A DNA stretch of 64,000 bases from Crambe crambe. Lineage: Eukaryota; Porifera; Demospongiae; Poecilosclerida; Crambeidae. The DNA is taken from the NCBI GenBank assembly GCA_963924555.1, contig OZ004588.1, forward strand, positions 1,674,001-1,738,000, written 5' to 3'. The number at the start of each line of letters is the position of its first letter. The stretch's first letter is position 1. The position numbers and the translations under genes are program-made. The notes under the pieces are model-generated. The model was not told the DNA's origin and searched no databases. It saw nothing but the letters and a program-made list of their open reading frames with translations. Shown here one piece after another: positions 11,801 to 52,970 of the stretch.

Positions 11801-12129
11801 ATCCATCTGTTGTTGCCACTGAGATTTTGAGATGGAAGGCTAAGTGGGAGAGACAAGGTGCAGAGGATCGACTTGAATCTCTGGCAACTGCCATCCAGCA
11901 ATGTGATAAGGATTTCTTTCCTAATATTTATGCACTGCTACATCTTGGTTGTACTGTACCAGTCACTTTCAGTGAGAATGAAAGAGCCAATAGTGTACTT
12001 AAAAACCTGAAATCATTTTTACGTAGCACCCAGGGACAAGAACGATTGTCATCCTATAGTTTACCTGTAGATCTCGATGAAGTAGTAGAAAGATTTAAAC
12101 TAAAATGTAATAGAAGAATAAACTTATGA
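8889..12129 (+). pseudogene. Broken hAT transposase, ZMYM1-like/DUF4371 type
   Basis: The N-terminus MTHQRKLDSFFYPAK is at 8889, followed by a donor-like AAG|GTAACT. The main frames are 10142-10561 (WFIYSKAEDGL, a TTF-finger-like segment), 10570-11094 (WFSILCDEVVDV and GYDGASNMSGKSG, the RNase H-like catalytic region, then YVHCNSHILNL), 11352-11744 and 11794-12129 (C-terminal hAT dimerisation region with FSENERANSVLKNLKSFLR). At least three frameshifts and some stops separate them, and a MITE interrupts the coding sequence at 9480-10078. The order and motifs match hAT transposases annotated as ZMYM1-like. Inactive. Confidence 0.85.
9480..10078. mobile_element. TTAA-flanked MITE inside the hAT transposase
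   Basis: TTAA on both sides, with inverted ends GGGTGCAGGCACA and TGTGCCTGCACCC. TTAA target duplication is typical of piggyBac-type transposition. It interrupts the hAT coding frame between KKKIFP and the segment reading FKPNSSF; taking out the element and one TTAA would rejoin the same frame. No transposase is encoded. Confidence 0.8.
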
Positions 12130-25527: not shown

Positions 25528-26113
25528 ATGGGGAACAAGACGAATAAACAGAAGCATGGGCCCGAGCCCGAGCCAAACTCTTTTCCTTCGAAGTCCGCAG
25601 GGAGCGATCTTTCTTCGGATTCCAACCCCCTAACCTGTGAAGCAAGCCAAAAAAAGACACACAAAGCTGCCTCCTCCCCTCCCCCTCCTGTAAACATTGA
25701 CATTGGACCTTCCAAGCCAAATAAGGAAAGCGAGCCTTCCCCTGATGAGTTCTTCGATCCTCCAGACCTTCCTAGCATAGATGCAGGGAGTAAAAGTTTG
25801 TCGAGTGGACCAGCATTTAAGACTGAACCAAAGTCAGATCAATCTAAGTCTGCAGGGAGTGATCTTCCTTCAGATTCCAGTCCCCTATGCACCCCTGAAG
25901 CTGCCTCCTCCCCTCCTCATCCTTTGAACATTGATAAATCATCTGAACTTCCCATGTCAAATAAGGGGAGTGAGCCTCCCTCTGATCATCCAGATCCTCC
26001 TCTAGACACTGGGAGTAAGAGCAGACCAGCATTTAAGACTGAGTCAAGTCCTCCAAAGAAAATATCACGGCAGGAGAGGCGACGAGCAGAAAGGGCGAAA
26101 CGCAAGTTCAAAG
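25528..26113 (+). CDS. Exon 1: disordered Ser/Pro-rich N-terminus with internal duplication
   Basis: 195 codons from the ATG at 25528; the frame is open upstream to a TTG at 25495, but this is the first in-frame ATG. The product begins MGNKTNKQ. It is rich in Ser, Pro, Asp and Lys and shows no fold. Two copies of a roughly 70-residue segment are visible, each starting SAGSDL, passing through AASSPP and ending PAFKTE. The C-terminal 20 residues are strongly basic (QERRRAERAKRKFK), a possible nuclear-localisation or membrane/RNA-contact patch. Gly2 would allow N-myristoylation, but residue 6 is Asn rather than Ser/Thr, so this is weak. The exon ends at the donor AAAG|GTATTA, phase 1. A minimal upstream ORF (ATG TGA) lies at 25512-25517, out of frame, 10 bases before the start. 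Confidence 0.68.
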
Positions 26114-29100
26114 GTATTACACACTCATACCTGTGACTTCTCCCTTCTCCATAGGAGTACAGAGGGACTGTAATGGCTGTGGTTTATTACTGCTGGAGGG
26201 TGTATCTATGGGTATGAAGTATACATGTGTCTGACCTCCCATGCAAATTCAAGACAGTTTTGCTAACATGATGCAGCCCAAATCAACTTGTCTCACCTTT
26301 GCCCCAAAACTAACTTTGCTAAATGCTAAATTGATAGAGTTAGAGGAAATGATAAGGTCTTCTTTGTAGCATAAACAGCAGTAGGAGCCTCCAAAAGTGC
26401 AAACCAATTTAAGTTCTACAATTCTTTATGCCAAATACACCAATATGGACATAGCTGTTAAATTATAGTAAGCCACCACCTATTGCAACCTCTCTATAGG
26501 ATCTTAGGGTACAGAAATATCATACTGTATGTCCGGAAAATATTGGCAGTCATCTTGCTCAGACATGGATGACTGATGACTCCCCCAGTCATTCCTCTAG
26601 TTGAGTTATAATGACTCCACGTAATCTTTATGGGAGACATTGTATTACTGTCCACACAAGCATTTCAATAGCTGGCTCCTCTTTTACTCTGGTCAAGACA
26701 AATACCCTCAACATGTTCTCCCAGTGCAACACACAAACTGAAAGCAATCACAAAAATGCCTTAAGTGGTAGGTAGTAAGTGATAGGACTGGTAGGGTGTG
26801 ACTTCCTTCATGCACTGTGTGATCACCTGCATAAGTGGGGATAAGGTGCCCCCAAACTTGTGTGCTGCATTATGGATTGTGATAATTGGCATGGTTAGGG
26901 GGCACTACAATGCACCATCGTCTGGCTGGTAGGTGGGGGAGGGGTCTCAACCCCACCCCTGGATCAATGGATCCAGCCATGTACTTATTACAAGATGCCA
27001 CCATGTTGGTATATAGGCGAAGGGTGTATGAAGTGTCTGCTATTTCATAAACCTCATGCAAATATAAGTCAACTCTGACTTCTTTTTAGTGTTAAAACAT
27101 AATCTAACACACCAGCAACAGGACTCCTAAAGGCAAACTAGTACATTTCCCTTATACCATGTACACCAATATGGACAAGTCCAATGTTATAGAAAGCCAC
27201 ACCTATTGCAACCTCTCTATAGGAACTAAGGGGACAGAAATATCATACTGTATATATTGCCTGGAATTAATAGGCTCCTGCAGATTATGCTCAAATTTAT
27301 ACACAAGATTCTATTCTCAGATTCTCACTCTAGCCTATTATTCTTTCAATTGTACCCATTATTCCCAAAGATTCTCCTATGGCAACAGGGCTGGATTCGG
27401 ATTATTAAATAGATGGGGTTGCATGACTAGGACTAGGGCCACACACTGGACCATGGGGGAGGCATAATTATTTGGAGGACCATGTATGTTGGCTTCACTG
27501 ATAGTTTGCCACATTTTGAGCTTTTAAATAATAATCCAAGTAGAGTAGTCTCCTATACCATAGATACATTTGTGTATGGTGTTACATTCCTGTGGGTTGT
27601 TATAAACTAATGGTTTGTAACCTCAATACATAATCAAACCATGATAATAACATTGAGGTGCATGCCTATACCAACTATCCCTAATAATGTAGCAGTTATT
27701 TTTGCTGGCTTCTTCAAGCTTCTTCTTCAATCTTGTTCAGCTTCTTGCCCTATTCCACCACCTCTAAATGGCATGTGTGGTCAGTCATATGCTAGCATTT
27801 GTGTAGGTAAGGGGTGGACCATACCAAAATTATGACATCTTTGAAGTGACATATGCATGGAAATCAGTTTTTATGTACTAAGTTATAAAAGTGTGTCCTT
27901 GAAAGTGTTCTTACCACTTTGATTAAGTATGAAGTATATATAATTATTATGAAGTATTATCATTGTCAAAGTAGAAATGCACATGATCAAGCAAGTAGGT
28001 ATGGTAAAAATCACTGTGCACCGTTTTAGGGGAGTGGGGGCCAACCACCCCCCCCCCCCCCCCCCCCCCCGAATAATTTTTGAACTTTGTGGATGTCACC
28101 ATCTTATTCACCCATAATCTCGACTGTGGGGTGTGTTGGGGTGTGCCAAATTAAACAGCTGTGGGTCCCTTTCCATAGGAGCTGCTGAGTCAGTTTGGGG
28201 AGTCCAAAACTCACGGATTTTCACCTGCTGAGCAATATGTATTGATATATTTTCACTAAGTTATGGTTAATATGGGTACATCCCTGCTGATATCTATTAA
28301 TTAGTGTGTCATTGATATTTTGTTTGTAGCTCCTCCACTGAGCTTAAGTAATGTTGTTGCAGTCCTAAACAAACTTTCGTGGAGCCGTGTTGGTGAAATA
28401 CTGACAATCCCCCAGACTAAGTTAAATACTATCAAAGACGAGTGTGATACGGATGAGGAAAGACTTTTAGCCACTGTTAACTATTGGCTATTAAATGATC
28501 CGAATGCGTCCTGGAGGAGACTTATGTGTCAGCTTGACTGGAACCATTCAGATATAGCAGACAGGATACGGAAGTATGCAGAGAAACTAACAGGTTAGTG
28601 AGAGCTTCAAACATATTGACATATGTACATGAATAGGTTGCATGTGCAGTTAAAACATTGCTGCTGTTCTGTTCCACAGGACTCAGTTGTATTATCTCTA
28701 ATCTCCATGACGTTTTACATAATTACATAATTATATCTGCTGAGTCAGCTATATCATTGTAACTACTTGACTGCTGCACATGCTGAGACCCATGCCCAGT
28801 TGTTAAGAGTAGAGACTCAAAGTCTGTAGTACATGTAACAAAGTTTAATTTTTTGCTTGTCAATTTCATTGCACTATTCCAACAAACCCTATTATAGTCT
28901 ATTTACATTCACTCTGACACCTTGAAGTTAGTGAGTTATGTATGTAACTCTTTACTGGTATAAAATAGAGTCTTATAGTAGCCACCATTAGAACCAACAT
29001 GTATATAATCAGCTCTCTGCTGATGTCTGAAATCAGTCTGGAATCAACAAAGTTATACTGTAGTTCCAGAAATTTCCTAGTTGAAATATTTCACATTTTT

Positions 29101-32100
29101 ATTTTTTAATTTCGGAAACATTATATACAACATCCAAAAATTTTCAATAATGAATTGTTATTGCATCCAGATGTGTGTGAATTAGAGTTCGACTAGTTAC
29201 TGCATGTATGTATGTAATGGCAGAGTCCGTGGCTGAGTCACAATGTGAGATGGATTCCTGCATCAGAGGCTATCATGAATACAGAGCAATATGGACAGCA
29301 GCTATTGGAGTCTCTTTGTTGTATTAGGGGAACCTACTAATACAATAGATCAATACGCTGTTGCTGTAATTAGAAGTGGACTAGTTGTTGGACATTTGCC
29401 TAAGAAGATTTCAAGAGTTTGCTCACTTTTTTGAGGAGAGGAGGTACCATATATTGTATAGTCACCAACACCAGGAGATATTCCACAGACCTCCCTCAAG
29501 GTGGACTAGAGATCCCCTGTACTTTGCATTTTGAAGGGATCAATTCTTTGAGAAGACGCTTAAAAAAATGCATGCCCAATCTCAATTCATAATCAGTACT
29601 TAAATCATTGTTTTCATCTGCTAAAATTATATTATAAAAGTTACAGCGGTTTTTTTTTATATTTCGTTAATCATCAAAGGACAATACAGATGAAGAATTA
29701 CGGTAGTCTTTTATTCGGTATGGTACGATTATTTTTGCGCATGTACAACAATATCTACGGACTTCGATTCACAGCTGCTTTTTCACTGGCTTGCATACTA
29801 TTCTTTGCCTTCATTTCTTCAGGTATAGCCCTCTTCGCAATCGTGGCGACTTCTTAAGTGATGGAATCTAGCTAGCTAAGAAGAAAGTGGACCAGAAGGT
29901 TATGTAAATTACATATAGTGCATGCTGTAGTTGAATGTACGAACGTCTACATGTGGCTAAACGGTGGCTTTATATTGGAAATAGAAAAATTTTCGATAGA
30001 CTGATTACTGAAATTACCGAATTTTTATTCCCACCAAGATTATCCCGCTGTAAGGTACACATTAAGTACATCAATCAATCACTGTTCACATCCACTTCTT
30101 CTATCTCTGAATCTTCCACACCAAGTGCTTTATTGTCAACATCAAGTGCTTGACATATCCCAGCTTCGTTCACTATGAATGACGGATTATCAGCAATGTG
30201 CTGAACTGTCTTGACAAGCCATTTGGCACCAAGTTCTTTCATAGCTGGTAAACATAGGTCAGCAGGTTCCAATCTTGATCCAACTGCTCTGCTATTTGAC
30301 TTGAATACCAGTCTTGAAATTTTCGCCGAAGAAAATCCTTCACAGTCTTATTAACAGAGATGTCCACTGGCTGTAATAAATCTGTGGTATTAGCAGGCAA
30401 CAAACAAACATGAATCGAATTCTCTTCAAGAATACCATTAACACATGGAGTGATTTGACCTTTAAAATTATCCATAATCACAAGGGCAGACTTGTCTTCC
30501 CCCAAATTGTCTCTTTGCTTTTAAACATATGGAATGATTATGGCTTTGATGTATTGAAACATCGTTTCTTCATTTGACCAATGTTTGGGTGAATGTATAA
30601 TATCCCAGTCACTCGGAAATTTGAAATGGGGGTGTTGAATGGGAGTGACAACGGTTTGTCTTGACAGTGGAAGTGACATCATTTAGAAATTCAAATGTGA
30701 AAAATTGGCAACACTAAATTTGTTCTTTGTTGTGGTGGCTTTTCACTGGACAAATTTCATCCACACAAGAAGTGAATTCGCCCATGGTCTGTAGCCACAA
30801 ACTCTTCTAACTTGAACTTGTTATATGCCATCACAATACCTCGAGCAGCAGCAACAACAATACATGCAGATACAACACCTCCAGCTTCTCTCAGTTTCAG
30901 CAATATGGTTGCACAACCATTGTCATAGGGTGGAATGTCCCCCGCTTAGAATGACCCGGGGGTCAGGGTGAAGTGACCTGGGGTCACTCTAACCTAGGCT
31001 GGAATGACCCCCCTGTGTCACTCAGCCCTAGGGTATATTGACCCCTCTAGGATGTAGTGACCCCCTGGGTCACTTTGCCCTTTGGTATAATGACCCCTCC
31101 CTCCCCGTCTCTACATAGGATGTGGAATTAGACAATCAAATCAATTACTTTGGTGAACATCAAAACCACTTGATACTTTTTTTTTCTTCCATGCTGCTGC
31201 TGGTGCTGTGACACATTGCTTATGAAACCACTGAGTCTTGGCATGAGCTGCAACTGATAATCAGTTACAAAAATCTCAAAGGTAATTGCTGCCAAACTTG
31301 AGCTTTTTTCTGGTTTTTCTGCTGTGGAAATGATGTCAGTGCCGATTTTCTAACAGTTGAAAAGATGCTTCCGAAACTTGTGTAATATATGCAACAGAGC
31401 AAACAATCACTGCCATTACCCTGAATTTTTGTACATTGACGAAATATATATCCAGTGGAGTAGGAATAGGAAATTTATCTGGGGGAGGGGGGCAGGGAAC
31501 TTTATGATATTGGTGTGACCCTTCAGAGCTGCAACGTGGATGGGAGGATTCTTGAACTTGTTAATCACAGTAATAGCAACAAAATTCAATCCTTCTGTCA
31601 TTAAATTGCATTAGATAACAGTCAGCAAGCAGCAGTGAAATTGCTGACATCACACTGCAATGACATGTAATTGCTTGGTGCTTGGTCGTACTTTCAATAT
31701 ACTGTTCATATTTTGGGGGGGGGGGCAGTGCCTCTCCATCTATAGTATTGGGGGGCAGTGGCCCCCCTGCCCCCCCTCTCCCCCCCATTCCTACTCCACT
31801 GTCTGATATCATATATATAGTCTTGCGGGCCAATCCTTTACCAAAATACACCTCCCGCAGCACTGATATCAACGGAAACTGTTGATATTAAATTAGCCAG
31901 GGGCTGCTAAAAAAACTGTAAAGAAATATTGTTCTGTGATCATGAAGTGCCGAATACTTATTAGAGCATGCGCAACTCACATGTACACTTTACTTATGTG
32001 GGGGTCACTTGACCCTGAGGGGGGTCATTTAACCCTAGATTAGAGTGACCTCCGGGTCACTACACCCTAGGGTAGAATGACCGGGGGTCACTATACCCTC

Positions 32101-35100
32101 CAACATCGTATCTAAATAGTCCCCCAGCAAAAGTGGCCTACCACGCTTTCTTTCAGGAAGCTCATCCACTCATTATTATCTGTTTTCCGTTTCTCTCTCA
32201 CACTTTCAAGGTAGTCCTTGATCGAGATGGTACTACTGTTGATTTTCACCCTCAACGTTCAAGAGAAATGTGCAGCAGCTGCTGAAACTCCATGCTGACT
32301 GCATATCTGCCCATATCAGCACAATCCTTAGGACTATATTAATAGAATTGTCATCTTTTTCCTAAGCTAGCTTAGCTACCTACGTAAGTATATACTTCAT
32401 ATATGGACCACGTTTTTTCTGTTTCTTAGCTTCAACCATCACTTTGTCCACTTCCTTATTAGCGAGCGCTACTGCCCTCAAGGTCATAATGTTGGATAAA
32501 GATCCACTGGGGCTTGGAAGTCCATCCTTAGCCTTGAAATACTTCCGTAAAGACATGTCTCGAGTATGTCAGAGCCACGTGTTACCATAATTTAAATTTT
32601 CATACAAATATAATTTCTGGTAAGTAGTTTTATTCCGACAATTTAATTTCGGAATACTTCCAACTTCCGAAAATATTTAATTTTTGAATTCTTCTGGAAC
32701 TACAGTAACTAGTATCACAAGTGCTAAGTAGATTTTTCAGAGCTATCTAGATCTTGGGATTAGTAGGTGAATGCACTGCACATACAGAAAGATAGCAAAG
32801 AGCATTATAGAAATGTGCGATAGTCACTGAAAGAACAACAAAGAGGTTCTATGTAACTGAAGTGTAATGTATGGAAATGAGTTATCTCATGTATCCAGCC
32901 TCTTGATTGCAACACTGAGATCACTAGCATATGTTAGGAAAGGCTATCGTAGAGGTTTTGTCCCTAGGACCAGAAGAGGTGTGATTGAGTGAATTAGACT
33001 CTTGCTCTCTAATACAATTTCTTTCTTATTTCTTGGCTAGCAATAGTCATGCAAAATGTTAAATTTTAGGGTCAGTCAGTCCTATTGAAGAGAGCTGCAA
33101 GAAATGTGAACAAACTACGTATAGTAGTAAGAGACTTGCTGTATTCTATATTCTGGGGGAAAGTTTATTATTTTGGACAACATCTAGGGGATGAAATTTC
33201 CTCTACACCTCCCCCCCCCTTATGGTTAGTTAGACACAAGAATTAGGTAGTTTGAGATTTCCATGCAATGGTTAACAGTGACTTCTAAATGTTTGACCTC
33301 GTAACTTCCCCTCTAAGTCGAAAATCCTCTTATCTGTATGCTTTGGTACATTATGAAAGAGCCAACTTTGGAAAAGCTGGACCATCCACAGCTACTTTAA
33401 TTAGGTATTGTGTCTCTGAGAGTTTGAGTTGAGCATTTGCATGTGATGATTATTTTACGTATACACCATAGAATATGTGGTTCATGATTGGAAGGCTGTC
33501 AGTTCAGCAGACTAGATCCACCCTTACATGCTCTTACCTGTACAGAAACTATTATGTGTGTCTATAATTGATTTTGTATTTAAAATCATTGAGTGGGAAA
33601 TGGGAGTGGTTATGGGAGGAGTATTTTAGTTCCTCCTCAAAGACGAATCACATCCCTTCATTTTTTTTCTAGATTTACCTACTGAGCATACAAAGTCACA
33701 AAAATGGCATACAATATGAGTACATAATTTGTTTACTGTGCGATGAAGACATGTGAGCTTGACCAAACCCATTTCTTGCATGTTAGTGATGCAATTCTGT
33801 AATCAAGTGGATTGCTGCATGAAACATGGAAGTGAGGGGATCATGCTTTTTGCTAAGTAGGAACCTCACCTTTTAAATAGCCTAATAGATCCGTTGATAG
33901 CATAAACTTCCCCTCCCCTCCCACATTGATTATTAATTGTATTATCCTCAGACATATACACTAGTCTGGCATAGCGGCGACCCTTACCAACCCAAGGGAA
34001 GGAAAAGGCATTAGCATCAACGACTTGTGTCTCACGTCAAGATTTTGACGCCACCAATCAGATCACTTGATGCATTTTTGTGACGTACACGTGACGTATA
34101 ATAATGAACGCGCAGCCTTTAAGCTTTTCAATGCTCAAGATCGATTGCAGAGACATGGAAGATAAGTATTGTATCGGCTGCGGTGAGCTGACGCAGAAGG
34201 GATCTAGAAGAATCATATCTGACTCCACTTTGTGGGAGGAAGCATTGAAGAAAATTTGGAAGAGACAAGGGCCAAGAAGATGATAGATTTATGTAGAAAA
34301 TGCTTTAATAGCTATGTCAAAGTTAAGAAAAAACTAGAGGTATCTGATCAAAGTTTTAATATAGCAATCTATTTATATTTAGCAACTTCACTACAGGTCA
34401 TCCACCAGAATTTGAGCAAGGCTCTTGATGCATGCAAAATTATGATTATTCCGCACACGTGATAATCTTGTTGTAAATTAACATTCATGGAATTCCAAAG
34501 TGACAAGTCGTTGATGCTAATGTCCCCAGACCCTTTTCCTTCCCTTGGGTTGGTAAGGGTCACCGCTACGCCAGACTACATATACACACCCACACACAAA
34601 CATCCCAGTGCCTCACTCTCTATATGGAACCCTCCATGGTGCTTGATTAGTACTATAAATTCTGTGGGTGTGTCTTATCTGAAGTAATAAAAGTGTTTAT
34701 GTCCTCTCCAGATCCCAGCCTCACCTCTCACAGTTTGCTGGCTGCTCTGGAGACTGTGGGGAATGCAGAGAACATTAGTGAGATTGATAATTCTGAAGGT
34801 AACTTGGAGCGTGTACTTCAACTACCACTCTCTAAGAGGAGGGAAATGAGATTGCAATGTTCAGCAGAGGCTGATTATCGCTATCAACTGATGGAATATT
34901 ATCTAAAATGTCATGAGTGTCCTGGGTGGAATCACCTGGCTGGGAGACTTCTCTACTGGAAACAACACAGCGCTCTTGAGAAAGTGAAGGGGAATGTTAC
35001 AGCTGATAAAGGTAAGTGTGTGGTAGATGACACATACTAAGTGAGGCAAGGGTGAATATAGTCATGTGATTGGTCAACAGTGGATGAATAAATGACTCTC

Positions 35101-40717: not shown

Positions 40718-40748
<31 letters not shown>

Positions 40749-43700
40749 GGGGGGAACAGCTGCAAGTTTAAGGAAGAATTATTATTAATATGGAAATGTC
40801 CAACACAAGTCTTTTTATGTCAAAGCAATTCCCACTATATAAAGTACCTGTCATTCATCTCTTGATGTTAACACTAAGTGCATGCATACACCTCATATTG
40901 TCTTTAGAGCATAAACTATAGTTGACTGAAGTAATACATGCTCATACTATTTCCATTTGTTCCTGTTACTTGTTGAATGGACTTATTTAGTTGCTCAGCT
41001 CATGTTTTATTCTCTATGTTCTCTCCCACAGACCCCTCCCTCACCCTCACTAATCTCACTCAGCTGCTGGAGGATGTGGGGAGTTTGTATTATGTGACTC
41101 TTGGTCTAGACATCCCCTACTCAGTGTATAGTAGAATAAAAGCACAAGAGTCCAGTGAGTCTGAACGTAGGAAGGCTTGTTGGAAGTGGTACCTGAACAA
41201 CCACCCATGCCCTTCGTGGCATCACATTGCTAATGCTCTATATATGAGATATGAGCATGGAGTGCTAGAAGTGTTGAAGAGTCGCTACCTTAAAGGTGAG
41301 TGTGGTTCTCTGTGATGATTACTGGAATGGTTGATTTGCATGTGTCCTATCCCCAACTATGTAAAAACATCATCCTATATGCCACTGTTATTAATTAAAT
41401 TTCTTCTCTCATAATCGATTGTTGTTGTTATTGTTGTTGTTGTTGTTGTGATTGTTGTTATTTTTGTTTGTTTTAATTCATTGGGTAGATGATATGAATA
41501 TTGTGTATTAGTCACCTGCTATGGAGTACTGGCATGAAGTTACATATAAAAATACAATACTCTTTTTGCAGAAATATTATTTTCTGCTGGTACTTAAGCC
41601 ACTCTGTTTTTAGGAAAGAAGAATGAAGGAACCATTTGTAGTAGAAAATGGTAGTTCTTATGAAGAGATGCAGTCTTGCTGATATAGCTACTTACATTCA
41701 AGAATGAGCCTTCAACAAGAAAACAGTGTTCTAGCATAGCTGTACTACTCCACTGACAGTTGATAAAATTCTTTTCTCTGCGTACCTATCTCATGGTCTT
41801 ATAGGCACAGCTGTAATAAAATAAGACAAGTACAGCTTGGACATGAAGCAGGTTGCCGAAATTTGTCAGCCTGTGCCTAATTGCTTCAACCAGTTAGCAG
41901 ACATTGAGGTCATGGTGGTTTGACTACTTCAGCTTCAAGGTTGGATGAGCAGTGCTTGTACATAGCAGAGGATCATCATGGGCTCTAACTGAACTACATT
42001 AAACATCTTTACATACTAAGTGCTATATATATTGTGAGACAATCGGTCATTTTCCGAGGGCCATGTTTGTTGTATGTTTGTGGATTAACAAATCTACATG
42101 AGGTCTTTCCATATGCAGGGTAACTTACCATGACAGTAGCAATAAATTTGAAGGCTCTCAATATACTGCTCTGAAAGCCTTGCAAATCTGGCAGAAAACA
42201 GCTATTGGGCCTCTGAATACCTTCTTATCAAACTAACAGCATTACATAACCACATACCTCAATATCTACAAACACATTACAAGCATGCATGACACTTTTA
42301 CAAGCTATTTGAAATGAGATTACAAGAAGATACAAGATGTCAGTCAAGGTGAGTCTGGTTCTCTGTGATGATTACTGGAATTGTTGATTTGCATGTGAGT
42401 CTTCTCTCCTGTCCTCAAAGAAGTAAAATTATCTTCCTATATGCCACTGTTATTAAAGAAAGTTTAAATCGGTTCTCTCATAATTGATTGTTGTTAGTTG
42501 TTATTATTATTATTGTGATTGTTGTTGTTATAAATATTTGTTTTGATTCATGGGGTAGGTTGTATGAATGTCATATATTAGACATCTGCTATGGCTAAAG
42601 TACTGGCAAGAAGTTGCGTATAAAAATACAATACTCTTCTGCCATCCATATGAATCCTCTGCCCACTCTGTTTTTAGGAAAGAAGGATAAAGGAACCATT
42701 TGTAGTAATAGTCCTCATGAAAAGATGGAGTCTCGTTTAGCCTCGTCCCCCAGGCCCTCCTTTTGTTATGATTGTGGAGGGCCTGGTATGCGAAGTCACT
42801 GGGGGATACAACTGGGGTTGAACCATCTAATTGGGCGTGGGCAGTGTACGAGAGCATAATGACCTGCCCACATATTTGGGCTATGCACTGAAGTGGCTAA
42901 AGGATTGACCTAAAGGCACCAGAAGAACTTTTGCTGATTTGCTACAACAAAAATTAATAACCAATTTGCTATGGCCATAAATCAAGGATTTGCTAAAACT
43001 CATGAAGAATTCTGAGGCCAATCTATTTATAATCCAGCTAAGCCTAAAATCTTGATAGCTTTACTATCTAATGATAGGCAGCTCCGATACTATTTGCTGC
43101 TAGGCTAGCAAAGCATAGCAACACCCGTATTCAGTGGCAGTTTCTCTTTGTTAGGCCTCGTTAGCCATGTGCTCGTGCATGGTTGTAGCACCAATTCGTC
43201 ATGGTGATGTATGCATTATGAATGCGTTTCCTTGGACTCACCCACACTATGAGTTCCTATGGTTTGGCGATATTTTCGAGTACCAGGCCCTCCACAATCA
43301 TAATTAAAAAGAGTGTCGGAAGACAAGATAAATTTTCGATTTATTTTCATGGTCATTAAAATTAATCACATGAAATTTAATTACCTTGTACAAAATGGAG
43401 TAAAACCTTAAGCTATAACAAAGAAAATAAACATGAAAATTGGAAGCATGAATTATTATTTAACTGAAAATTTCCCAATTTATGGTAGCTACTTACATTC
43501 AAGAATGAGCCTTCAATAAGAGAACAATGTTCTAGCATAGCTGTACTACTCCACTGACTGTTAAAGATCGATACTCTGCATATCTAATTCATGTTTTTAT
43601 ATCCACATCAACTGAAATAAGACAAGTCCAAACTTTATTAGCTGATTCCACAGTCTTCTGTGCCTAATTGCTTCAGCCAGTTAACAAATATTGTGGTTAT

Positions 43701-46700: not shown

Positions 46701-49700
46701 AACTACACCTGATTGGTTAGATAGAATGACTACTGCCTTTAGGCATAGTTACCTTCACAAACGGCTAAATAGTTAACTTTCAGGCTTGTTTATACAACAG
46801 TTCTGCATGTGCTAGCACACAGTAACACATAACATTCATGTTTTGCTTAAGTCATGCCCACCTGAGTTCAATTTTAACCCAACAAGTTTTCTTTTTGAAT
46901 GGCCTGCTCTGCCTTCAAGAGATAGAGTGTGACACTGACCTTGAATGAATGGATTGATTGACCACATACCCATTTTTAACTGGGTATACGTTACTTACTA
47001 TGTATGAGCTCACTTCACTCGCCCGAGTAGCCAATCACTCAGTATGTCTAACGGTATTTTCATACTTCATGTCTTCTTTCCATTACTCCCACTAAACCAC
47101 TAAATTTAATACTCACAAATTTAATGTTGTCATTATTAGGTAATACTTGCCAAGTATGTAACTTGATATTAAGTAAAGTGGCCTCAGTAACGTATACGTC
47201 TAAGGTATAAGCCTCACATCTTCACTTTCTTAGGATGACTGAATAAAGAACTCAAAAGTTACTTCCATGTGCTACTGAAATCATCCAAACATGCCTATTT
47301 AGAAAGGAAGATTTACTCATGGACATGTTAACAGCATTACATAACCACATACCTCAATATCTACAAGCACATTACAAGCATATACATGACAATTTTGCAA
47401 ATTTACAAGCTATTTGCAATGAGATTACAGGAAATCATATGAAGCAGATGCAAGAAGTAGTTCTTTGGAATTATATACTCAGTTGAGTTACAATGAGCCC
47501 TAAATAGTGGTTAGTAGCATTATTATAGTCTGAAATTTTCACTGTTAAAAAAAAAATTGGAATGTGAACCATAATTATTACGTTTTGTGTACTGATTCTC
47601 TTCAAATCCAACGACAAGTTCCAGTCAATATACTCCAGCACAATATAAATGTTAATACATGTTGAATTCACATGGACATGCTCAGTCAGCACTTAAGGTA
47701 AACAAGGAGAAAACTAGCACCCTCACATTTCTGTGAGATGTCCAGTTTCTCATGATTCAAACATCATGGGTATCCACCCAGCATGTCTCACCCAAAGTTT
47801 AAACACTTATCTCTATGGTAACATGCATGTGTATAGGTTTAATCCAACTGAGCTAAGATTGTGGTCATAGTATTTCTATCTATATGCTTCAACCAACTAC
47901 CCTGTATGAATCACTCCAAAATCATCAACTTTCTGTCCAGCAACAACCTAAGTACCAACTTTGTGCTAGTGGTACTATCATCATGTGCATATATAAATCT
48001 ATAAAACTTTTGCCTATTGATCCTGGAATGATTTCAAACTTGAATTATTTGAACAAATTGAGAAATTTCATGAGTATCGTGTCTCCAATAATTTACTTGT
48101 AGCTCCTCTTGTTCTTACTTCTCATTTGGAGGTCCTCGTCTTGGTACTTACTGCAGTCTCACTTGCTTTTTGTCTTGAATCACTTATCTTGAGCTAGTTA
48201 ACAGCATCACATAACAACATACCTCAATATCTACAAGCACATTACATACAAATTTTAATGCGATTACAGGAAGTCATTTAAAGGTTGAATATGAAGAACC
48301 TAATAAGTTATGTTGGCAAGACCATCATCCAAACCCAAGAACTACTTCTAGTTCAGATCATTGATAAAACTTCAGTTATATTGGCTATAGCAGCTCCAGG
48401 ACTTACAATAAATAGAAAACAAAGAAGATTTAGATATTCAACTGGACACATAATTGAAGTTTAGCATCTGTAATGAGCTTTCTAGAAAAGAATCACCTGT
48501 TCCTTGCATTAATGAATTTGAGCATTTAGTTTAACAATAATTCATGAGGTTTGTATGATAAAGCACTAGCTATTGAAATATCAAAATCTCATGGAACCAA
48601 TTAGCTCTTTGTGGAATCAGTGTACATAACATTGTGTGTAAGTGGTTGAACTTTCAATGTTATTACAATTTTCAGGAATGTGATAAGTAAATGTTTGTAT
48701 GGTGTTAGTTTTATAGGAAGGCACTTCAGGAGTTGAATAGCATTATCTGGTTTTCTGTTTTGGTAATTAACCATTGGCTGACACTGAAGTCAGCAGCTCC
48801 AGCTGAAGTGGTACTAGGTAGCTAGCCTGTGAATGGCTAGCAAATTATTGATTGCTGATTGAATACATAACCATTCTTGACCTTCCGTAATTCAGCTGAC
48901 TACTACTAACGTGAGTAGCACTTACTTTCCTAGGTCCAATGCACTTGGCAACTAGTGAGCATAAAGAAAGAAGAAAATAAATTGTTTACTTATCATTCCA
49001 CTAATATAGTAGAATGTTCTTACATGTGCATGCAAAAAAGGTATTCATATAGCTATTAAATTTTCAATCCCATGGTACAAATTATTCATGGTGTATGCAA
49101 TGATGTTCTATGTCAGTTGTGTGCATGACACATACCAAGTAGAAAAAAATTAATTTCAGTGGGTATATTGATATAATTTGATGTTTATACATGCATAATA
49201 GCCTCGTACCCAGGCCCGCTTTTTTCGCGAGGCAGTGGAAAAGTGAAGGGCCTAGTATAAGTTGCATGCGCATGCACTTAATTAAACACGAGATAATATG
49301 TAAAATTTCATCCATGATGAATGGTGTAATCATAAAAACGTATGTAGCATGTGCGCATTCAATCAGTGCATATGCATGCAGCTAAGGTAAAGCGGGGCTA
49401 TTTCGAATGGCGGGGCTATTCCGTAGGGTCAAATATTTTCAAAATTTCATGAGCTTACGAGCTCTATTTTGAAAGATATATTCTACCATTATAGTAGATT
49501 ATATCCTCCAACATTGAGCTCAGTGGTTTCAGAAACATTTGAACCTACGGAATAGCCCCGCCGTTCGAAATAGCCTCGCTTTACTTTATCTATGCTTAAA
49601 GCTAGCAAGTTAGCTAGCTAGATCTGACTCCAGACCTTATCCACATCAGTGAAATAAACTAAGAACAACACCATCCCTCTCAATCCAATATGGTCAAAAA

Positions 49701-52692
49701 AGGTAAGACATGATACTTTGATAGCAGCGACTCTTCTCGTCTAACCAGTTGGTAACGACACTCAAACAGCTTACACAGAATGCTTCTGGGAGTGAGGTGA
49801 GTTGAATCTAGAGCAGAAAGACAGAACAGTCTAGAGCTAGCTGCTGACTCAGCTCTCAAAATTACGATGATGTAATGTTTATTACGATTTGTGTAACAGA
49901 CGTGCCCGAAAGTATAGCGAATCCCCCCCTAATTGGGGGGATGGATCGCATGCACATGCAAGTTATACCAGGCCCTTTGCTTTTCCACCGCTCCGCAAAA
50001 AAAGCGGGCCTGGGTACGAGGCTAACATGCATAATAACATTCATCCGGTTTTTTCATTGACTACCTGTAGGTTCCGCTGAGTCACGTCGACTGTATAACG
50101 AGGCAATGAAGCAGGGACATGTAAAGTCCCAGATCAACAAAGCCCTCCTTTATGGGGCTCCAGGAACTGGAAAATCGAGTTCAATTGACCTTTTCGTTGG
50201 TAACCCTCCAAGGCAAGCCAGAATAAGCACTCCTCTAGCTGCTCGTCCAATTACAATGATACATATGGGTGTAACCAAGAAGGAGTGGAAAAAGCTTTCC
50301 TCAAAAGAACAGAAAAAAATTCTAGCGAGGGCCATATATGCTCAGCTTCATGCCAATGACAAAGATTCTGGCGAGGATTCTGTCTCTGATGAGGGATCTG
50401 GTGAGGATTCTGAATCTGGCGAAAATTTAAGTTCTGATACGACTCTTGAGCACAAAGAAGCTCATAGTAAAGAAGATAAGTCGACACGTGACGTACATCC
50501 ACAAGTACACCCAGCAACTCATTCCAGTCCAACACCTGCTAGAAAATCAAAGAAAGGTTCTCAATCAAAGGAAAAGATTTCACTGCCATCCATTAGCACA
50601 CATGAGGAACTAATGGAACTATTGGACGAGATCTCCAAATCAAATGAAGCCTTACCTGTCTTCCGGAAGGTCAAATTGATCGACTCTGGTGGACAACCAC
50701 AATTTCATGAGGTGTTACCTGTATTTCTTCGTCGCATGTCCCTCTACATATTCGTCTTCAAGCTGTCAGAAGAACTCGCCACCAAGCCCATGGTAGAGTA
50801 TTTTGGGGAGGATGGGAAGCGTGTGGGGACACCTTACCGATCAGCTCAGTCCAACGAGCAGCTATTGAAGCACTGCCTTCGCACTTTGCACACCCACAGA
50901 TCATCTCCCGATACTAAAGGTGAGTGCTCCAAAATCATGATCGTAGGGACCCACAGGGACGAAGAACACCTGTGCACGACCGAAACACGAGAGCAGAAGA
51001 ATAAGAAGTTAGAAAAGCTGTTGCTTCCGATGTTCCGAGAGGAAGTCATCTACTACAAACTGGCAGAAAATAAGTTAATCTTTCCAGTCAATGCCAAAAA
51101 TCCTGAAGAGCTCGATAAGGATACAGCTAGAGATATCCAAAGTGTAGTCCTAACTAAGTGTATGCCTGATCCCATTGATGTGCCCCTTCAGTATTTCTCT
51201 TTGGAAATTATCCTTGAAGAAGTCAGCCTTTCTTTAGATAGAGGGGTATTGAGCAAAGAAGAATGCCTTCGAGCAGCAGATAAGCTTTTCTTTGATGAGC
51301 ATACACTGGATGCAGCTCTCCAGTTCCTAGATGAAATTTCATCGGTCTTTTATTTCCCCGAGGTTCTGGATGGTGTTGTATTCACTAACCCTCAAGTCCT
51401 CTTGGATAAGGTAACTGAGTTGGTGGAGATTACCTATTGCTTGAGAGAAAATGTTGGTTGTAAAACACTTGGTGCACTTTCTGGAGGCTGGCAGAAGTTT
51501 AAAGATCATGGCATTGTTAGCTTAGAGCTTCTGCAAGAGAAAGAGTTTGATAAGCATTATGTGCCTGATATCTTTACTCCTGTTGATCTGGTTAAGCTCT
51601 TTAGAAAGTTGCTCATCATAGCTGACTTTAGTGCTTCAGAGTACATCATGCCTGCTCTCCTTCCTGTTCTTGAAAATAAGAAAGTTCATGATTGTCGTAT
51701 CACTAAAGATTCACCTGTAGCTCCTCTTGCTCTGGACTTCCCACTTGGAGGTCCTCGTCTCGGTACTTACTGCAGTCTCACTTGCTTTCTTGTCTCCAAT
51801 GACAACCAGTTTCCACGTCCTTGGAAAATAGTGCTGCTTCCTCATTCCAACACTCCAGCTTGCCTGAATCGAAACTGCACCCAATTCATGGTACCTGGCT
51901 TTCCTGGCTCTATCACTCTGATTGACACATTTTCTCATGTTGAGATCCATGTGGACACTGCCAAGAAAGTTTGTAGCAAGCTCTGCTCTTTTGTCTCTCA
52001 GGCTGTGTTTGCAGGTCTAAAGAAAGCCATGTTAGTTCTTGGGTACAATAACTCGATCCCTTCAAAAGCACTTCTTTGTCCTTGTGGGGCTAAAGATCCC
52101 CATGTTGCCACTTTCGGGGATGATCTCTGGATCTGCAGTCAAGATAACAAAGTATTTGGAGATCTCACTCCTAGACACCTGCTGTGGTGTGATCAACCAG
52201 ATCATTCTCCTATGAAAGGTTGGTCAAATTATATATATAAAAAAGAGGCTAATGTTACACTTATTGATCTTGTTTTATTATAACTTATTTAGCTAGTGCC
52301 TTAATTCCTTCACTGCTTTGACTTTTGATAATTTTATCTTTATCATGGAATTTGTGATTATTTCATTTGCAGGAGCTTCTGCCTCTTCAACTCCTACTAT
52401 GATGGAAATCATTCGCTTCCCTTCAAAAGATTCCAAAGTGAACTTGGCTCAAGAAATCGGAACTAAGTATTTCGAATTTGGAACTTTCTTGCTTGAAGAT
52501 GCCACTGGTGCTCGTATCAGTGCCTTGAAAAAAGAGTTGAGAGATAATGCAGAAGATATCAATCGCGAAATCTTCCAAAAATGGTTGAGTGGAGATGGGA
52601 AAAAGCCTGTTTCATGGGAGACTCTAATTGCTGTACTTGAAGACATTGGATTGAGCGAACTAGCAAAATCGATAGCAGAAGTCAAACAATAA
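25528..52692 (+). CDS. Predicted six-exon gene: multi-death-domain Roc-COR (ROCO-like) signalling protein
   Basis: Gene model: exons 25528-26113, 28330-28593, 34712-35011, 41032-41295, 50071-52218 and 52373-52692, total 3,882 nt, 1,293 residues plus stop. Each exon is open throughout, each intron starts GT and ends AG, and all five introns are phase 1, so the frame is kept across the whole join. Domain order is a disordered Ser/Pro-rich N-terminus with a basic patch, three death-like domains, a Roc GTPase, COR, a Cys/His-rich tail and a C-terminal death domain. ROCO proteins are GTP-switched scaffolds that dimerise through COR; death domains form homotypic signalling assemblies (family knowledge). 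A cytosolic innate-immune or cell-death adaptor role is inference. Uncertain points: whether the N-terminal and Roc exons are always in one transcript, and whether further exons lie in the 6-9 kb introns. A poly(A) signal follows at 52761. Confidence 0.7.
26114..28329. repeat. Intron 1: direct repeat and C run
   Basis: A segment with CACCTATTGCAACCTCTCTA at about 26480 recurs at about 27205; similarity covers about 26365-26530 and 27080-27270. A pure C run of 23 lies at 28048-28070. Short open frames here lack splice support. Nothing else was recognised. Confidence 0.55.
28330..28593 (+). CDS. Exon 2: death-like domain 1
   Basis: 88 codons between acceptor TTTGTAG|CT and donor CAG|GTTAGT, phase 1 at both ends. 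The product begins APPLSLSNVVAVLNKL and has the layout of a six-helix death fold: an LP-type loop (LTIPQTKLNTI), a helix with Asp/Glu (DECDTDEER), then the conserved Trp motif SWRRLMCQL before the last helix (DIADRIRKYAEKL). Length and Trp position fit the death domain family, an adaptor fold that pairs with other death domains. It falls between exon 1 and two further exons of the same fold. Some subfamily ambiguity (death versus a divergent death-fold) remains. Confidence 0.75.
30927..32099. mobile_element. Nested element with GGGTCA-type subterminal repeats
   Basis: It splits the pogo transposase. Both ends carry about 100-190 bases of clustered, mirrored GGGTCA/TGACCC motifs (30940-31110 and 31998-32095); the outermost bases are AGGGT and ACCCT. 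No transposase of its own is seen. The terminal arrays may be transposase-binding sites, as in some non-autonomous DNA elements (inference). Confidence 0.65.
31453..31801. mobile_element. Third-level nested foldback element
   Basis: Inverted ends CAGTGGAGTAGGAAT and ATTCCTACTCCACTG, each with an adjoining G-rich or C-rich tract, lie inside the GGGTCA element, which lies inside the pogo element. The length of 349 bases and lack of coding sequence fit a MITE. Confidence 0.6.
33962..34578. mobile_element. MULE-like foldback element with perfect 9-bp target duplication
   Basis: 617 bases. Ends TAGTCTGGCATAGCGG and CCGCTACGCCAGACTA begin inverted repeats of about 75 bases, flanked by CATATACAC on both sides (33953-33961 and 34579-34587). 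A 9-bp duplication is typical of Mutator-like elements. The interior encodes a short zinc-finger-like fragment. It lies in intron 2, close upstream of exon 3. Confidence 0.85.
34155..34350 (+). pseudogene. Zinc-knuckle-like fragment inside the MULE-like element
   Basis: Starts MEDKYCIGCGELTQKG at about 34155 and after a frameshift continues TRAKKMIDLCRKCFNSYVK. Two Cys-x2-Cys pairs are spaced like a small zinc-binding domain of the sort found at the N-terminus of some transposases. The remainder of a protein is missing, so this is probably a remnant of the parent autonomous element. The family was not recognised. Confidence 0.45.
34712..35011 (+). CDS. Exon 3: death-like domain 2
   Basis: 100 codons between acceptor CTCTCCAG|AT and donor AAAG|GTAAGT, phase 1 at both ends. 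It starts DPSLTSHSLLAALETVG, nearly the same opening as exon 4 (DPSLTLTNLTQLLEDVG). It carries the matching late motif GWNHLAGRLLYWKQHSALE. The middle contains the loop LQLPLSKRREMRL and the helix YRYQLMEYYLKCHECPG. The shared opening, loop and Trp motif show exons 3 and 4 are diverged duplicates of one domain exon. The exon lies about 120 bases after a MULE-like element in the same intron. Confidence 0.76.
35482..36046. repeat. 26-bp minisatellite, about 22 copies
   Basis: Unit GTGTCCACCACTATGTGG plus AGGTCCCA, repeated almost perfectly with a few substitutions (ACTACG, ACCGCT, GGTTCC variants). The unit contains a short hairpin (CCAC...GTGG). Because 26 is not a multiple of 3 and the unit has no stop in any forward frame, all three forward frames are open and give cyclic peptides such as CVHHYVEVPVCPPLCGG. 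It lies in intron 3, so it is not taken as coding. A single diverged copy of its edge recurs at about 39577. Confidence 0.95.
36132..36728. repeat. 600-bp direct repeat, left copy
   Basis: Begins ACTACATAAATGTGGTCTGT and matches 38570-39164 almost base for base. The pair flanks a transposase. It is too long to be a target duplication, so it represents a tandem duplication of about 2.4 kb. Confidence 0.9.
36725..36895 (+). other. Open frame with SHOCT-like C-terminal motif
   Basis: Encodes KAAELKTIYISQIKELYSLL and then EVGAITDGDFQKV; in the next frame it is followed by ELMDKL and a stop. The pattern (short helix, Gly-x-Ile-Thr turn, helix) resembles SHOCT-type tails. It lies directly beside the left 600-bp repeat. 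A gene fragment is possible but the assignment is weak. Confidence 0.25.
37156..38179 (-). pseudogene. Tc1/mariner (IS630-type) DDE transposase, frameshifted near its end
   Basis: Minus-strand frame 38179-37274 encodes 301 residues: an N-terminal helix-turn-helix (KGYSKDLRLRIIWKYL...TIKEISREL), then the catalytic triad in FIDETGSN, VILDNASIHH and SPDLNPIEEAF, with 34 residues between the last Asp and Glu (DD34E). It stops after QVKSS, but the next frame carries on with LRDNELSYQS, TPRIIFAEAF and NYIKHAGYM to a stop at 37156. One base has therefore been lost near 37280 and the real protein was about 340 residues. It is antisense in intron 3. No clear terminal inverted repeats were found. Confidence 0.85.
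38570..39164. repeat. 600-bp direct repeat, right copy
   Basis: Right partner of 36132-36728, differing by scattered substitutions and a small indel near the end (an extra GACTGGTT). A short third remnant is seen at about 40012-40075. Confidence 0.9.
40713..40754. repeat. (GT)n followed by poly-G
   Basis: About nine GT units run straight into 23 G. Lies in intron 3, about 280 bases before exon 4; a potential G-quadruplex on the RNA sense strand. Confidence 0.9.
41032..41295 (+). CDS. Exon 4: death-like domain 3
   Basis: 88 codons between acceptor CTCCCACAG|AC and donor AAAG|GTGAGT, phase 1 at both ends. Key segments are LGLDIPYSVYSRIKAQE (helix 2-3 loop), RRKACWKWYLNNHPCPSW (helix 4 into the conserved Trp) and HHIANALYMRYEHGVLEVL (helices 5-6), ending SRYLKG. 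This is the most canonical of the three N-terminal death-like modules. The intron immediately downstream has been copied: the donor-flanking sequence recurs at about 42346-42400, and two candidate alternative last exons follow at 41614 and 42678. Confidence 0.78.
41418..41472. repeat. TTG/TTA trinucleotide tract
   Basis: Imperfect run of GTT/ATT trinucleotides. A shorter version is present in the tandem copy at about 42488-42535. Confidence 0.8.
41614..41654 (+). CDS. Candidate alternative terminal exon after exon 4
   Basis: Acceptor CTGTTTTTAG|GA fits phase 1. Joined to exon 4 it adds GKKNEGTICSRKW and then stops at TAG (41652-41654). This would give a short isoform with only the N-terminus and three death-like domains, without the GTPase. 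A second copy of the same acceptor and first codons lies at 42678, so the segment belongs to a tandem duplication. The pyrimidine tract is short and there is no transcript evidence. Confidence 0.3.
42678..42859 (+). CDS. Candidate alternative terminal exon 2, running into a foldback element
   Basis: Same acceptor (CTGTTTTTAG|GA, phase 1) and opening residues (GKKDKGTICS) as the 41614 candidate, but the frame stays open for about 60 codons to TAA at 42857. From about 42739 the coding sequence is the left end of a foldback element, so the last ~40 residues would be exonised transposon DNA. It could equally be a non-functional duplicate of the first candidate. Confidence 0.25.
42739..43303. mobile_element. 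Foldback element with AGCCTCG-type ends
   Basis: Inverted ends: TATGATTGTGGAGGGCCTGG at about 42767 is mirrored by CCAGGCCCTCCACAATCATA at about 43283. The left end starts AGCCTCGTCCCCCAGGCC, close to the ends of the element at 49200-50023, so the two are related families. No transposase is encoded, so it is non-autonomous. Confidence 0.6.
44741..44835. mobile_element. Hairpin-rich insertion absent from the tandem copy
   Basis: Relative to the matching site at about 47290-47310, this copy has about 90 extra bases. They hold two perfect palindromes: ATTGGGACA AAA TGTCCCAAT and GGACACC AAT GGTGTCC. It is probably a remnant of a small foldback element. Confidence 0.45.
46080..46440 (+). pseudogene. 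Decayed COR-exon fragment, copy 1
   Basis: Translates in pieces to sequence related to the late COR region of the Roc-COR exon: KVHEYRVSNDLLVAFLAL (about 46368-46420) corresponds to KVHDCRITKDSPVAPLAL at about 51680-51730. Stops and small indels interrupt it. A second, better preserved copy is at 47830-48180. Both lie in intron 4 on the sense strand. Confidence 0.55.
47830..48180 (+). pseudogene. Decayed COR-exon fragment, copy 2
   Basis: The stretch at about 48096-48170 is nearly the same DNA as 51715-51795 in the Roc-COR exon (shared GGAGGTCCTCGTCT, then GGTACTTACTGCAGTCTCAC), preceded by a copy of the KVHEYRVSN segment. Frameshifts and stops disable it. The upstream part matches copy 1, so a longer fragment was duplicated after it had begun to decay. 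Confidence 0.65.
49200..50023. mobile_element. Foldback element with about 80-bp inverted ends
   Basis: The left end AGCCTCGTACCCAGGCCC is perfectly inverted at the right end (GGGCCTGGGTACGAGGCT), and similarity runs about 80 bases inward with few changes. Flanking copies of ACATGCATAATA on both sides suggest a long target duplication, as made by MULE-like elements. No transposase. The right end lies 48 bases before the Roc-COR exon acceptor, so the element forms the end of intron 4. Confidence 0.75.
49384..49588. mobile_element. Nested palindromic MITE
   Basis: About 55-base arms: GGTAAAGCGGGGCTATTTCG at the left is mirrored by CGAAATAGCCTCGCTTTACT at the right, with a spacer of about 90 bases. 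The whole element lies inside the larger foldback element, so it inserted later. Confidence 0.7.
50071..52218 (+). CDS. Exon 5: Roc GTPase-COR unit
   Basis: 716 codons in one exon. Acceptor CTACCTGTAG|GT fits phase 1 and adds SAESRRLYNEA before the internal ATG at 50106; I prefer the spliced start because phase and sequence fit the exon series. Nucleotide-binding motifs: G1 GAPGTGKS (50154-50177), G3 DSGGQ (50682-50696), G4 THRD (50949-50960) and G5-like NAK (51090-51098). COR follows from about 51170 (YFSLEIILEEV, then a long region ending GGPRLGTYCSL at about 51770). After COR comes a Cys/His cluster starting CPCG (52077) and ending RHLLWC. Roc-COR proteins cycle GTP and dimerise through COR. 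Odd point: a Ser/Asp/Glu-rich stretch of about 75 residues (50358-50580) splits the GTPase between G1 and G3. Donor AAAG|GTTGGT is a weak consensus; without it the frame stops 20 codons later at 52281. Confidence 0.85.
52373..52692 (+). CDS. Exon 6: C-terminal death domain and stop
   Basis: Acceptor TTCATTTGCAG|GA in phase 1, matching exon 5, then 105 further codons and TAA at 52690. After a short Ser/Thr-rich linker (SASSTPTMM) the product shows a full death domain: LAQEIGTKYFEFGTFLL, ISALKKELRDN, EIFQKWLSGDGK and the conserved Trp motif SWETLIAVLEDIGLSELAKSI. Death domains at the C-terminus of Roc-COR proteins are a known arrangement. A decayed copy of the first half of this exon lies about 140 bases downstream of the stop. 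Confidence 0.83.
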
Positions 52693-52827: not shown

Positions 52828-52970
52828 TTCCAGTGTCTTTCTCTCCTCCAACCATGATGGACATCCTGTATTTCCTCCTACCTCTACAAGACTCTAACTT
52901 GACTCAAGATTTATTATAGCTACCTTGAAGACAGAACTAGAGCTCAAATCTGAATTCAACTGCCAAGTGT
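52828..52970 (+). pseudogene. Decayed copy of the terminal death-domain exon
   Basis: Starts with an acceptor-like TTCCAG, then reads close to exon 6 at DNA level: CTCCAACCATGATGGA matches the exon-6 CTCCTACTATGATGGA, followed by versions of the segments encoding SKDSNLTQ and LEDRTRA. It breaks with TTATTATAG and frameshifts, and fades after about 140 bases. It is a tandem duplicate of exon 6 that has lost function. Confidence 0.6.

Follow-up and report, generated by a model that had tools for sequence, protein, structure and literature searches.

In brown algae, the LRR-ROC-COR genes described in PMC11378527, and in the work of Zambounis et al. 2012 cited there, combine a ROCO core with N-terminal modules encoded by symmetric exons. 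That account presents an expanded family shaped by exon shuffling, with positive selection at four sites per module, and treats its members as candidate immune receptors; the module is a 72-bp phase-2 LRR exon, encoding a ligand-binding repeat, that is itself repeated within the gene. The fungal NWD/HNWD NLRs (HET-D, HET-E and HET-R), as set out in PMC4986451, likewise join a switch NTPase to a hypervariable module, with concerted evolution of the framework, positive selection at four positions per repeat and a link to non-self recognition. Nearer at hand is a lineage-specific expansion in another sponge, the TRADD-N proteins of Amphimedon, for which PMC8195603 gives 357 proteins with one to three N-terminal death-superfamily domains ahead of a different signalling domain. 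In actiniarians, the NG3 protein described in PMC5094078 shows that Death and Roc/COR can be united in one early-branching animal protein, alongside kinase and TIR domains, with Roc/COR and an SH3 domain called by SMART.

Here we describe a multicopy gene from the sponge Crambe crambe, contained in a window of 64,000 nucleotides (the whole stretch of DNA analysed; C11:1674001-1738000 of a 143-Mb genome). Wnt genes are not known outside animals, and 14 Wnt exon matches mark this genome as metazoan. Death domains are generally regarded as conserved adaptors. In this family, a few codons on one death-domain face outpace the flanking introns, with the remainder of the domain and the GTPase core fixed. 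We know of no resolved molecular basis for non-self recognition in sponges, for which the locus is a concrete multicopy candidate.

Gene architecture and domain identity

The gene lies on the plus strand of the window and consists of the following exons:

25528..26113, plus strand: exon 1, 586 nt; start MGNKTNKQK, Ser/Pro/acidic region and basic end SRQERRRAERAKRKFK; phase-1 donor
28330..28593, plus strand: exon 2, 264 nt; first death domain; single symmetric 1-1 exon
34712..35011, plus strand: exon 3, 300 nt; second death-like domain; single symmetric 1-1 exon
41032..41295, plus strand: exon 4, 264 nt; third death domain, hypervariable cassette; single symmetric 1-1 exon
50071..52218, plus strand: exon 5, 2148 nt; Roc GTPase (P-loop GAPGTGKSS, DSGGQ, THRD) with COR
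52373..52692, plus strand: exon 6, 320 nt; C-terminal death domain, type A, with stop

All five introns have GT donors and AG acceptors and interrupt the frame in phase 1, and the six exons join into 1,293 codons plus a stop; splice sites and joined frame therefore confirm the gene structure put forward in a preliminary description of this DNA. The predicted splice sites and frame recur in 25 of 25 fetched copies of exon 2, in 25 of 25 of exon 3 and in 61 of 65 of exon 4, the four exceptions being three fetch-boundary offsets and one copy (L081) with a GC donor. Chance open frames are ruled out by this conservation across copies. Exon 3 has length variants among paralogues. Exon 1 is present in all five copies checked, those of the window gene and four neighbours, each with the start MGNK[AT][GN]K[KQ]K and a basic KRKFK end before a phase-1 donor, and with a middle that is not conserved across the five; no Pfam family was found in it. 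We take its MGNKTNKQK start to resemble an N-myristoylation plus polybasic signal.

The Roc-COR exon has at least 62 copies in the genome (62 of 591 candidates scored), all covering nearly the whole exon. When relatives are counted upstream as far as the next Roc-COR exon, using the best 76 of 119 exon 4, 79 of 127 exon 3 and 76 of 116 exon 2 matches, 61 of the 62 copies are preceded by relatives of exons 4, 3 and 2 in the same order and on the same strand; the single exception is at C11:3722841. This regularity bears out the earlier contention that the joined frame is unlikely to have arisen by chance. It also bears on whether the death exons and the Roc-COR exon belong to separate genes, a reading to which introns of up to 8.8 kb in the window gene lend some colour. 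Set against those long introns are the constancy of order and strand and a compact paralogue in which exons 2 to 5 are separated by only 426, 671 and 556 bp, with GT-AG introns of matching phase 1 (and one stop codon in its exon 5), and we consider separate genes barely credible. The sequence evidence supports one gene, with the architecture [MGNK... basic tail]-Death-Death-Death-Roc-COR-Death, in a large ROCO family; the three N-terminal death domains, Roc-COR core and C-terminal death domain of the preliminary description are likewise supported.

That description also assigned one death-like domain to each of four exons, which holds by Pfam for exons 2 and 6 and by fold for exon 4, and is likely for exon 3 from its homology to exon 4. 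Exon 2 (E 4.2e-4, 20.8 bits) and exon 6 (E 1.1e-3, 19.5 bits) each fall under the curated cut-off of Pfam Death (PF00531) when taken alone, and the joined protein, in which the two are summed, reaches 28.4 bits against a cut-off of 22.6. Neither exon 3 nor exon 4 has a Pfam match of its own; exon 3 is homologous to exon 4 (BLASTP E 3e-11 to 1e-9), and the AlphaFold model of exon 4 matches FADD/RIPK1-type death domains, which identifies it, at the level of a predicted structure, as a six-helix death fold of the DD subfamily.

The AlphaFold model of exon 5 matches the Roc-COR of LRRK2/Roco proteins, and its Roc part matches LRRK2; residues 97-173 form a low-confidence insert that is probably disordered. 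With E values up to 0.1 accepted, all 57 aligned relatives match Pfam Roc; the window copy scores 18 bits (E 0.0034), under the curated cut-off of 27. G28, G31, G33, K34, D204, G207, T293, H294 and D296 are invariant across the alignment and Q208 nearly so, with P-loop, G3 and G4 (THRD) motifs present. Pfam detects COR in 12 of the 57 relatives and not in the window copy, where it is present by fold. Further Pfam matches on the joined protein were weak and AAA-type, and nSTAND1 appeared weakly in two of 57 relatives. NACHT or NB-ARC was not found by Pfam, the fold being Roc-COR, and Pfam returned no kinase, ankyrin or LRR on the joined protein. PDB sequence searches with single exons and with an exon 4 profile were uninformative. 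The family is that of the ROCO GTPases, with COR directly after Roc. At the end of the COR region, C669, C671, H677 and C688 of exon 5 (residues 669-688, window ~52077-52136) are invariant in the 57 aligned sequences and possibly form a metal site.

Genomic arrays and exon exchange

On C11, 36 copies of exon 5 (34 plus and 2 minus) are spread over 2.25 Mb, from 1.60 to 3.84 Mb, at a median spacing of 55 kb. Within the window extended by 100 kb on each side, the unit occurs five times, always on the plus strand and with relatives of exons 2-5 in order; these five have introns several kilobases long. In the C10, C5 and C8 clusters, the starts of exons 2-5 lie at most ~2.5 kb apart. Matches in the genome number at least 116 for exon 2 (150 of 262 candidates scored) and at least 127 for exon 3 (150 of 173 scored), both counts including cross-matches (for exon 2, those to exons 3 and 4), and at least 119 for exon 4 (150 of 252 scored). 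Stops are rare among the matches listed: 3 of 119 for exon 4, 1 of 127 for exon 3, 0 of 116 for exon 2 and 3 of 62 for exon 5.

A protein search with exon 5 gave at least 947 matches (8,000 candidates scored; best 120 of 947 listed). Outside the 62 exon 5 matches listed, further Roc matches on C17, C18, C14, C8 and C10 lie in open frames of ~600 to 4,000 codons, and Roc proteins look widely expanded in the genome. Distant relatives of the exon 2 and exon 4 cassettes, roughly 28-45% identical, are scattered over C9 (~4.32-5.03 Mb) and C5 (~4.98-6.33 Mb), in regions without an exon 5 match among the 62 listed; there the death cassette may precede another core.

The preliminary description held that symmetric exons would allow domains to be gained or lost without a frameshift. 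Exchange of such exons is supported by two features of the sequences. The C-terminal death exon exists as two phase-1 types among neighbouring copies: type A, identical in the window gene and neighbour g1 and 67% identical in g4, and type B, which follows exon 5 in g2 and g3, both with partial type-A remnants further downstream. Moreover, judged by identity, exons 2-5 of the window gene have their nearest relatives, among the matches listed, in different genes: exon 2 at C11:1867443 and 2324461 (95%), exon 3 at C11:3394696 (92%), exon 4 at C11:2687695 (89%) and exon 5 at C11:1595726 and 3354390 (99%).

The introns and flanks carry other remains. Intron 4 contains a decayed piece of exon 5 (window 48060-48172, residues ~536-573), and all five copies of the 264-kb region have a similar piece in that intron; a weak exon 6 match lies just downstream of the gene (window 52842-52913). 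Both are probably fossils of an older duplication. Intron 3 holds an IS630/Tc1-like transposase frame antisense to the gene (window 37274-38188, minus strand; DDE_3 E 4e-25), the surroundings of which align in g2, g3 and g4 and not in g1, as well as a 28-bp minisatellite of 20.3 copies, open in three frames (window 35481-36048), that is also found in the region's four other copies. A DDE_1 transposase fragment lies within the gene in intron 2 (window 30239-30520, minus strand), and hAT-like pieces (DUF4371, hAT dimerisation) lie outside it (window 10549-12129, plus strand).

Diversifying selection on one face of the third death domain

The third death domain is under strong diversifying selection, concentrated on one face. 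Its variation falls into three stretches:

41079..41105, plus strand: hypervariable stretch 1, codons 16-24; H1-H2 loop and helix 2
41118..41144, plus strand: hypervariable stretch 2, codons 29-37; helix 3
41247..41252, plus strand: hypervariable stretch 3, codons 72-73; H5-H6 loop

Across 70 proteins of the exon 4 family, many framework positions show the same residue with at most one exception, and residues 19, 20, 22, 23, 29, 33, 36, 72 and 73 each take 10 to 12 or more residue types, at 2.4-3.4 bits of entropy. The commonest residues at variable sites are Tyr, Asp, Arg, Thr and Asn, in raw counts taken with no background. In 38 copies from C11, nucleotide diversity is 0.027 in the 5' flank (divergence 0.03), 0.103 over the whole of exon 4 and 0.104 in the 3' flank (divergence 0.108), and in the variable codons it climbs to as much as 0.71 at the first two positions; pN over the 13 most variable codons is 0.49. 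The three stretches form 35 distinct combinations in the 38 copies. Recombination among the stretches as the sole source of this variety is unsupported, with 34 of 38 strings distinct in stretch 1 and 30 of 38 in stretch 2. Since pS in exon 4 (0.069) lies above the divergence of the 5' flank, and divergence in the 3' flank equals the mean for the exon, turnover of the exon by recombination adds to point change.

Pairs of neighbouring genes place this variation beside that of the other exons. The dN/dS of exon 4 is 1.8-9.4 in all ten pairs (15-28 nonsynonymous against 1-4.2 synonymous differences), and its flanking introns diverge by 0.7-5%. Exon 5 gives 0.21-0.38 in the same number of pairs, and Roc-COR is under purifying selection; exon 2 (0.53-1.51) and exon 3 (0.63-1.22) show no clear excess. 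On a tree of the 37 distinct C11 copies, exon 4 has undergone 397 nonsynonymous and 62 synonymous changes (P 3.6e-8 against a neutral nonsynonymous share of 0.763, changes being taken as independent). The 13 most variable codons account for 246 and 12 of these, in parsimony counts that presuppose one tree and for codons picked after inspection of the data. Site by site, nine codons of exon 4 have a nominal P < 0.05 for an excess of nonsynonymous change, and codon 23 alone passes Bonferroni (31 sites listed).

The same 13 codons behave similarly in other clusters, with pN 0.39 against pS 0.17 on C5 (four copies), 0.45 against 0.07 on C10 (six copies) and 0.38 against 0.16 on C15 (eight copies), where 5' flanks diverge by 0.009-0.016. 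For the whole of exon 4 in these three clusters, pN exceeds pS in 158 of 200 bootstraps on C5, 200 of 200 on C10 and 125 of 200 on C15, so that over the full exon the excess falls short of significance on C5 and C15. The 13 top variable positions of any two clusters have 6-8 in common (P 0.003 to 2e-5, ties in small clusters broken arbitrarily). Seven of 13 are also common to nine database proteins with another framework, LTQIMEDV (P 3e-4), which are invariant at 51 of 87 positions; these come from 52 newly listed proteins, their framework is absent from the 65 fetched genome copies, and P0205 was left out of the set as 86/87 identical to L081 of this genome. The first two death domains vary at matching places, exons 2 and 3 (25 copies each) being most variable at the corresponding H5-H6 loop and exon 3 also in helices 2-3; the pattern is weaker there, and diversifying selection is seen for exon 4 only.

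Could this variability have no function, arising from relaxed constraint, a mutational hotspot, or an artefact of alignment or assembly? The many copies, the repeat-rich introns, the long array and a C11 3' flank as divergent as the exon 4 mean are what such an origin might leave behind. Against it, relaxation cannot raise the 13 codons to 16 times the level of the 5' flank and four times that of the 3' flank, as in C11, or to 25 times that of both flanks, as in C10; synonymous change within them is low, and their third bases are mostly kept (NNT or NNC), which argues against a hotspot of mutation alone. Nearly all fetched copies retain intact frames and splice sites, and the recurrence of exact variants in an independent database (28 of 38 C11 copies) speaks against artefact. 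We regard an origin without function as very improbable.

How the variation is arranged on the fold can be compared with the interfaces of known death-fold assemblies, for which the account in PMC6168553 assigns helices 1 and 4 to type Ia, helices 2 and 3 to type Ib, the end of H4 with the H4-H5 loop to type IIa, and the H1-H2 corner, together with H6 and the loop before it, to type IIb. The H1-H2 loop, helix 2, helix 3 and the H5-H6 loop, which together account for 25 of 87 residues by the helix limits of the exon 4 model, contain ten of the 11 positions at or above 1.5 bits (P 7e-6, all residues being treated alike regardless of solvent exposure, and with face definitions looked up after the variable sites were known); with all of H6 counted on the varied side, P weakens to 9e-4. 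Helix 1 has a mean entropy of 0.04, the H4-H5 loop 0.09, helix 6 0.18 and helix 4, with one variable position (42), 0.44; the values for helix 2 and the H5-H6 loop are 1.88 and 1.94. Taken with the published interface types, these values indicate diversification over most of one interaction side and conservation of the greater part of the other. In terms of the model, the kept face of the N-terminal death domains would comprise helix 1, most of helix 4 and the H4-H5 loop (types Ia/IIa), and the varied face helices 2 and 3, the H1-H2 corner and the H5-H6 loop (Ib and most of IIb).

The one-sidedness of the pattern bears on its main rival explanation, under which the death domain of each paralogue assembles with itself or its own adaptor and diversification prevents the cross-seeding of co-expressed signalosomes. 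Such insulated homotypic signalling would fit the distinctness of nearly all variant combinations in the array, and it draws on the description in PMC13012725 of human death-fold domains that nucleate each other very specifically and of small sequence changes that can yield orthogonal modules. Under it, however, the two sides of an interface should change together, and the near invariance of helices 1 and 6, of the H4-H5 loop and, for the most part, of helix 4, beside varied helices 2 and 3 and H5-H6 loop, is at odds with that prediction; we judge it unlikely, though the strongest of the alternatives.

Repertoires, candidate function and known systems

Repertoires of the third death domain differ between sets of public contigs. 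The public protein database contains 69 exon 4 relatives, on contigs distinguished below solely by their length. Entries identical to fetched genome copies make up 12 of 13 on contig 1,235,736, 8 of 8 on 1,570,718, 5 of 5 on 249,861, 4 of 4 on 206,794, 4 of 4 on 2,046,707 and the single entry on each of two further contigs. On the unmatched contigs they make up 2 of 18 (1,406,122), 0 of 5 (313,539), 0 of 5 (600,414), 0 of 2 (2,255,888) and 0 of 1 on each of three more. Summed, with contigs grouped after the matches had been seen, 35 of 36 entries stand against 2 of 33. In the reverse direction, the 28 C11 copies noted above are joined by 10 of 27 others with exact counterparts in the database, the comparison having used 65 of at least 119 exon 4 matches in the genome, including 38 of the 39 closer C11 matches. 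One unmatched variant, searched directly in the genome, found nothing closer than 91% (150 of 300 candidates scored). The unmatched contigs may come from the second haplotype, from a different individual or from a sister species.

The preliminary description had suggested a generic platform for clustering death folds. The placement of the unit in a tandem array of dozens and the hypervariability of one of its death exons shift the likely role towards a repertoire. Our preferred reading, to which we assign a probability of roughly 0.6, is that of a ROCO-type repertoire in which the diversified module is the death domain, its variable face serving recognition and its constant face signalling. 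Roc-COR would act as a GTP-regulated, probably dimeric switch, possibly tethered to the membrane by the N-terminus with its MGNK start. The variable face would recognise a putative variable partner, such as a ligand of microbial or non-self origin or the gene product of a polymorphic locus, and binding of the partner would switch Roc-COR; the constant face and the C-terminal death domain might then seed a shared death-domain assembly downstream. With exons in phase 1, recombination within the array would allow new variants to be swapped in without a frameshift. More tentatively, and with somewhat less than even confidence, we suggest that these are repertoire receptors of the sponge, in which ~13 codons on one face make the death domain a hypervariable recognition element, with dozens of germline copies and repertoires that are almost wholly haplotype-specific.

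Selection could also have favoured escape from microbial effectors targeting death domains, by modification or binding, in which case the variation would reflect evasion of attack and not recognition. Microbial enzymes that modify host death domains are known, and solved complexes with such enzymes occur among the structural matches of exon 4, which shows only that those complexes contain death domains. Near-random residues at ~13 positions in three stretches look more like recognition, and the attack sites of microbial effectors on death domains known to us are few and constant; escape seems to us a rather remote explanation, less probable than insulation. Should the repertoire reading prove true, self/non-self recognition in sponges could have its molecular basis in this locus, or the locus could serve as an anticipatory immune repertoire carried in the germline. 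Its interface variants also form a natural library with which to explore the encoding of death-fold specificity.

Among the titles and abstracts listed from open-access literature, with few subscription journals, we saw none on hypervariable sponge death domains or on a sponge death/Roc-COR array. By the domains tested, the family is one of ROCO GTPases and is neither LRR-ROCO nor NLR. Unlike the vertebrate ROCO proteins DAPK1 and LRRK1/2, the sponge protein lacks kinase, ankyrin and LRR domains by Pfam, carries three N-terminal death domains and is multicopy. The TRADD-N proteins of Amphimedon end, in the description of PMC8195603, in ankyrin, LRR or other C-termini and not in Roc-COR, and the term hypervariab occurs 0 times in the main text of that paper. 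Actiniarian NG3 differs in its kinase and TIR domains and has no N-terminal death array in its description in PMC5094078. The fungal NWD proteins pair NACHT with WD repeats, whereas the sponge genes pair Roc-COR with death domains, and do so in an animal. In comparison with the brown algal genes, the diversified exons are not LRR modules, no LRR being found by Pfam; the sponge module is a whole death domain in a phase-1 exon, with one variable copy per gene, the variation lies between genes of a tandem array, and a C-terminal death domain is present. The sponge family thus offers an animal counterpart of the brown algal ROCO and fungal NWD repertoires, built on a different module.
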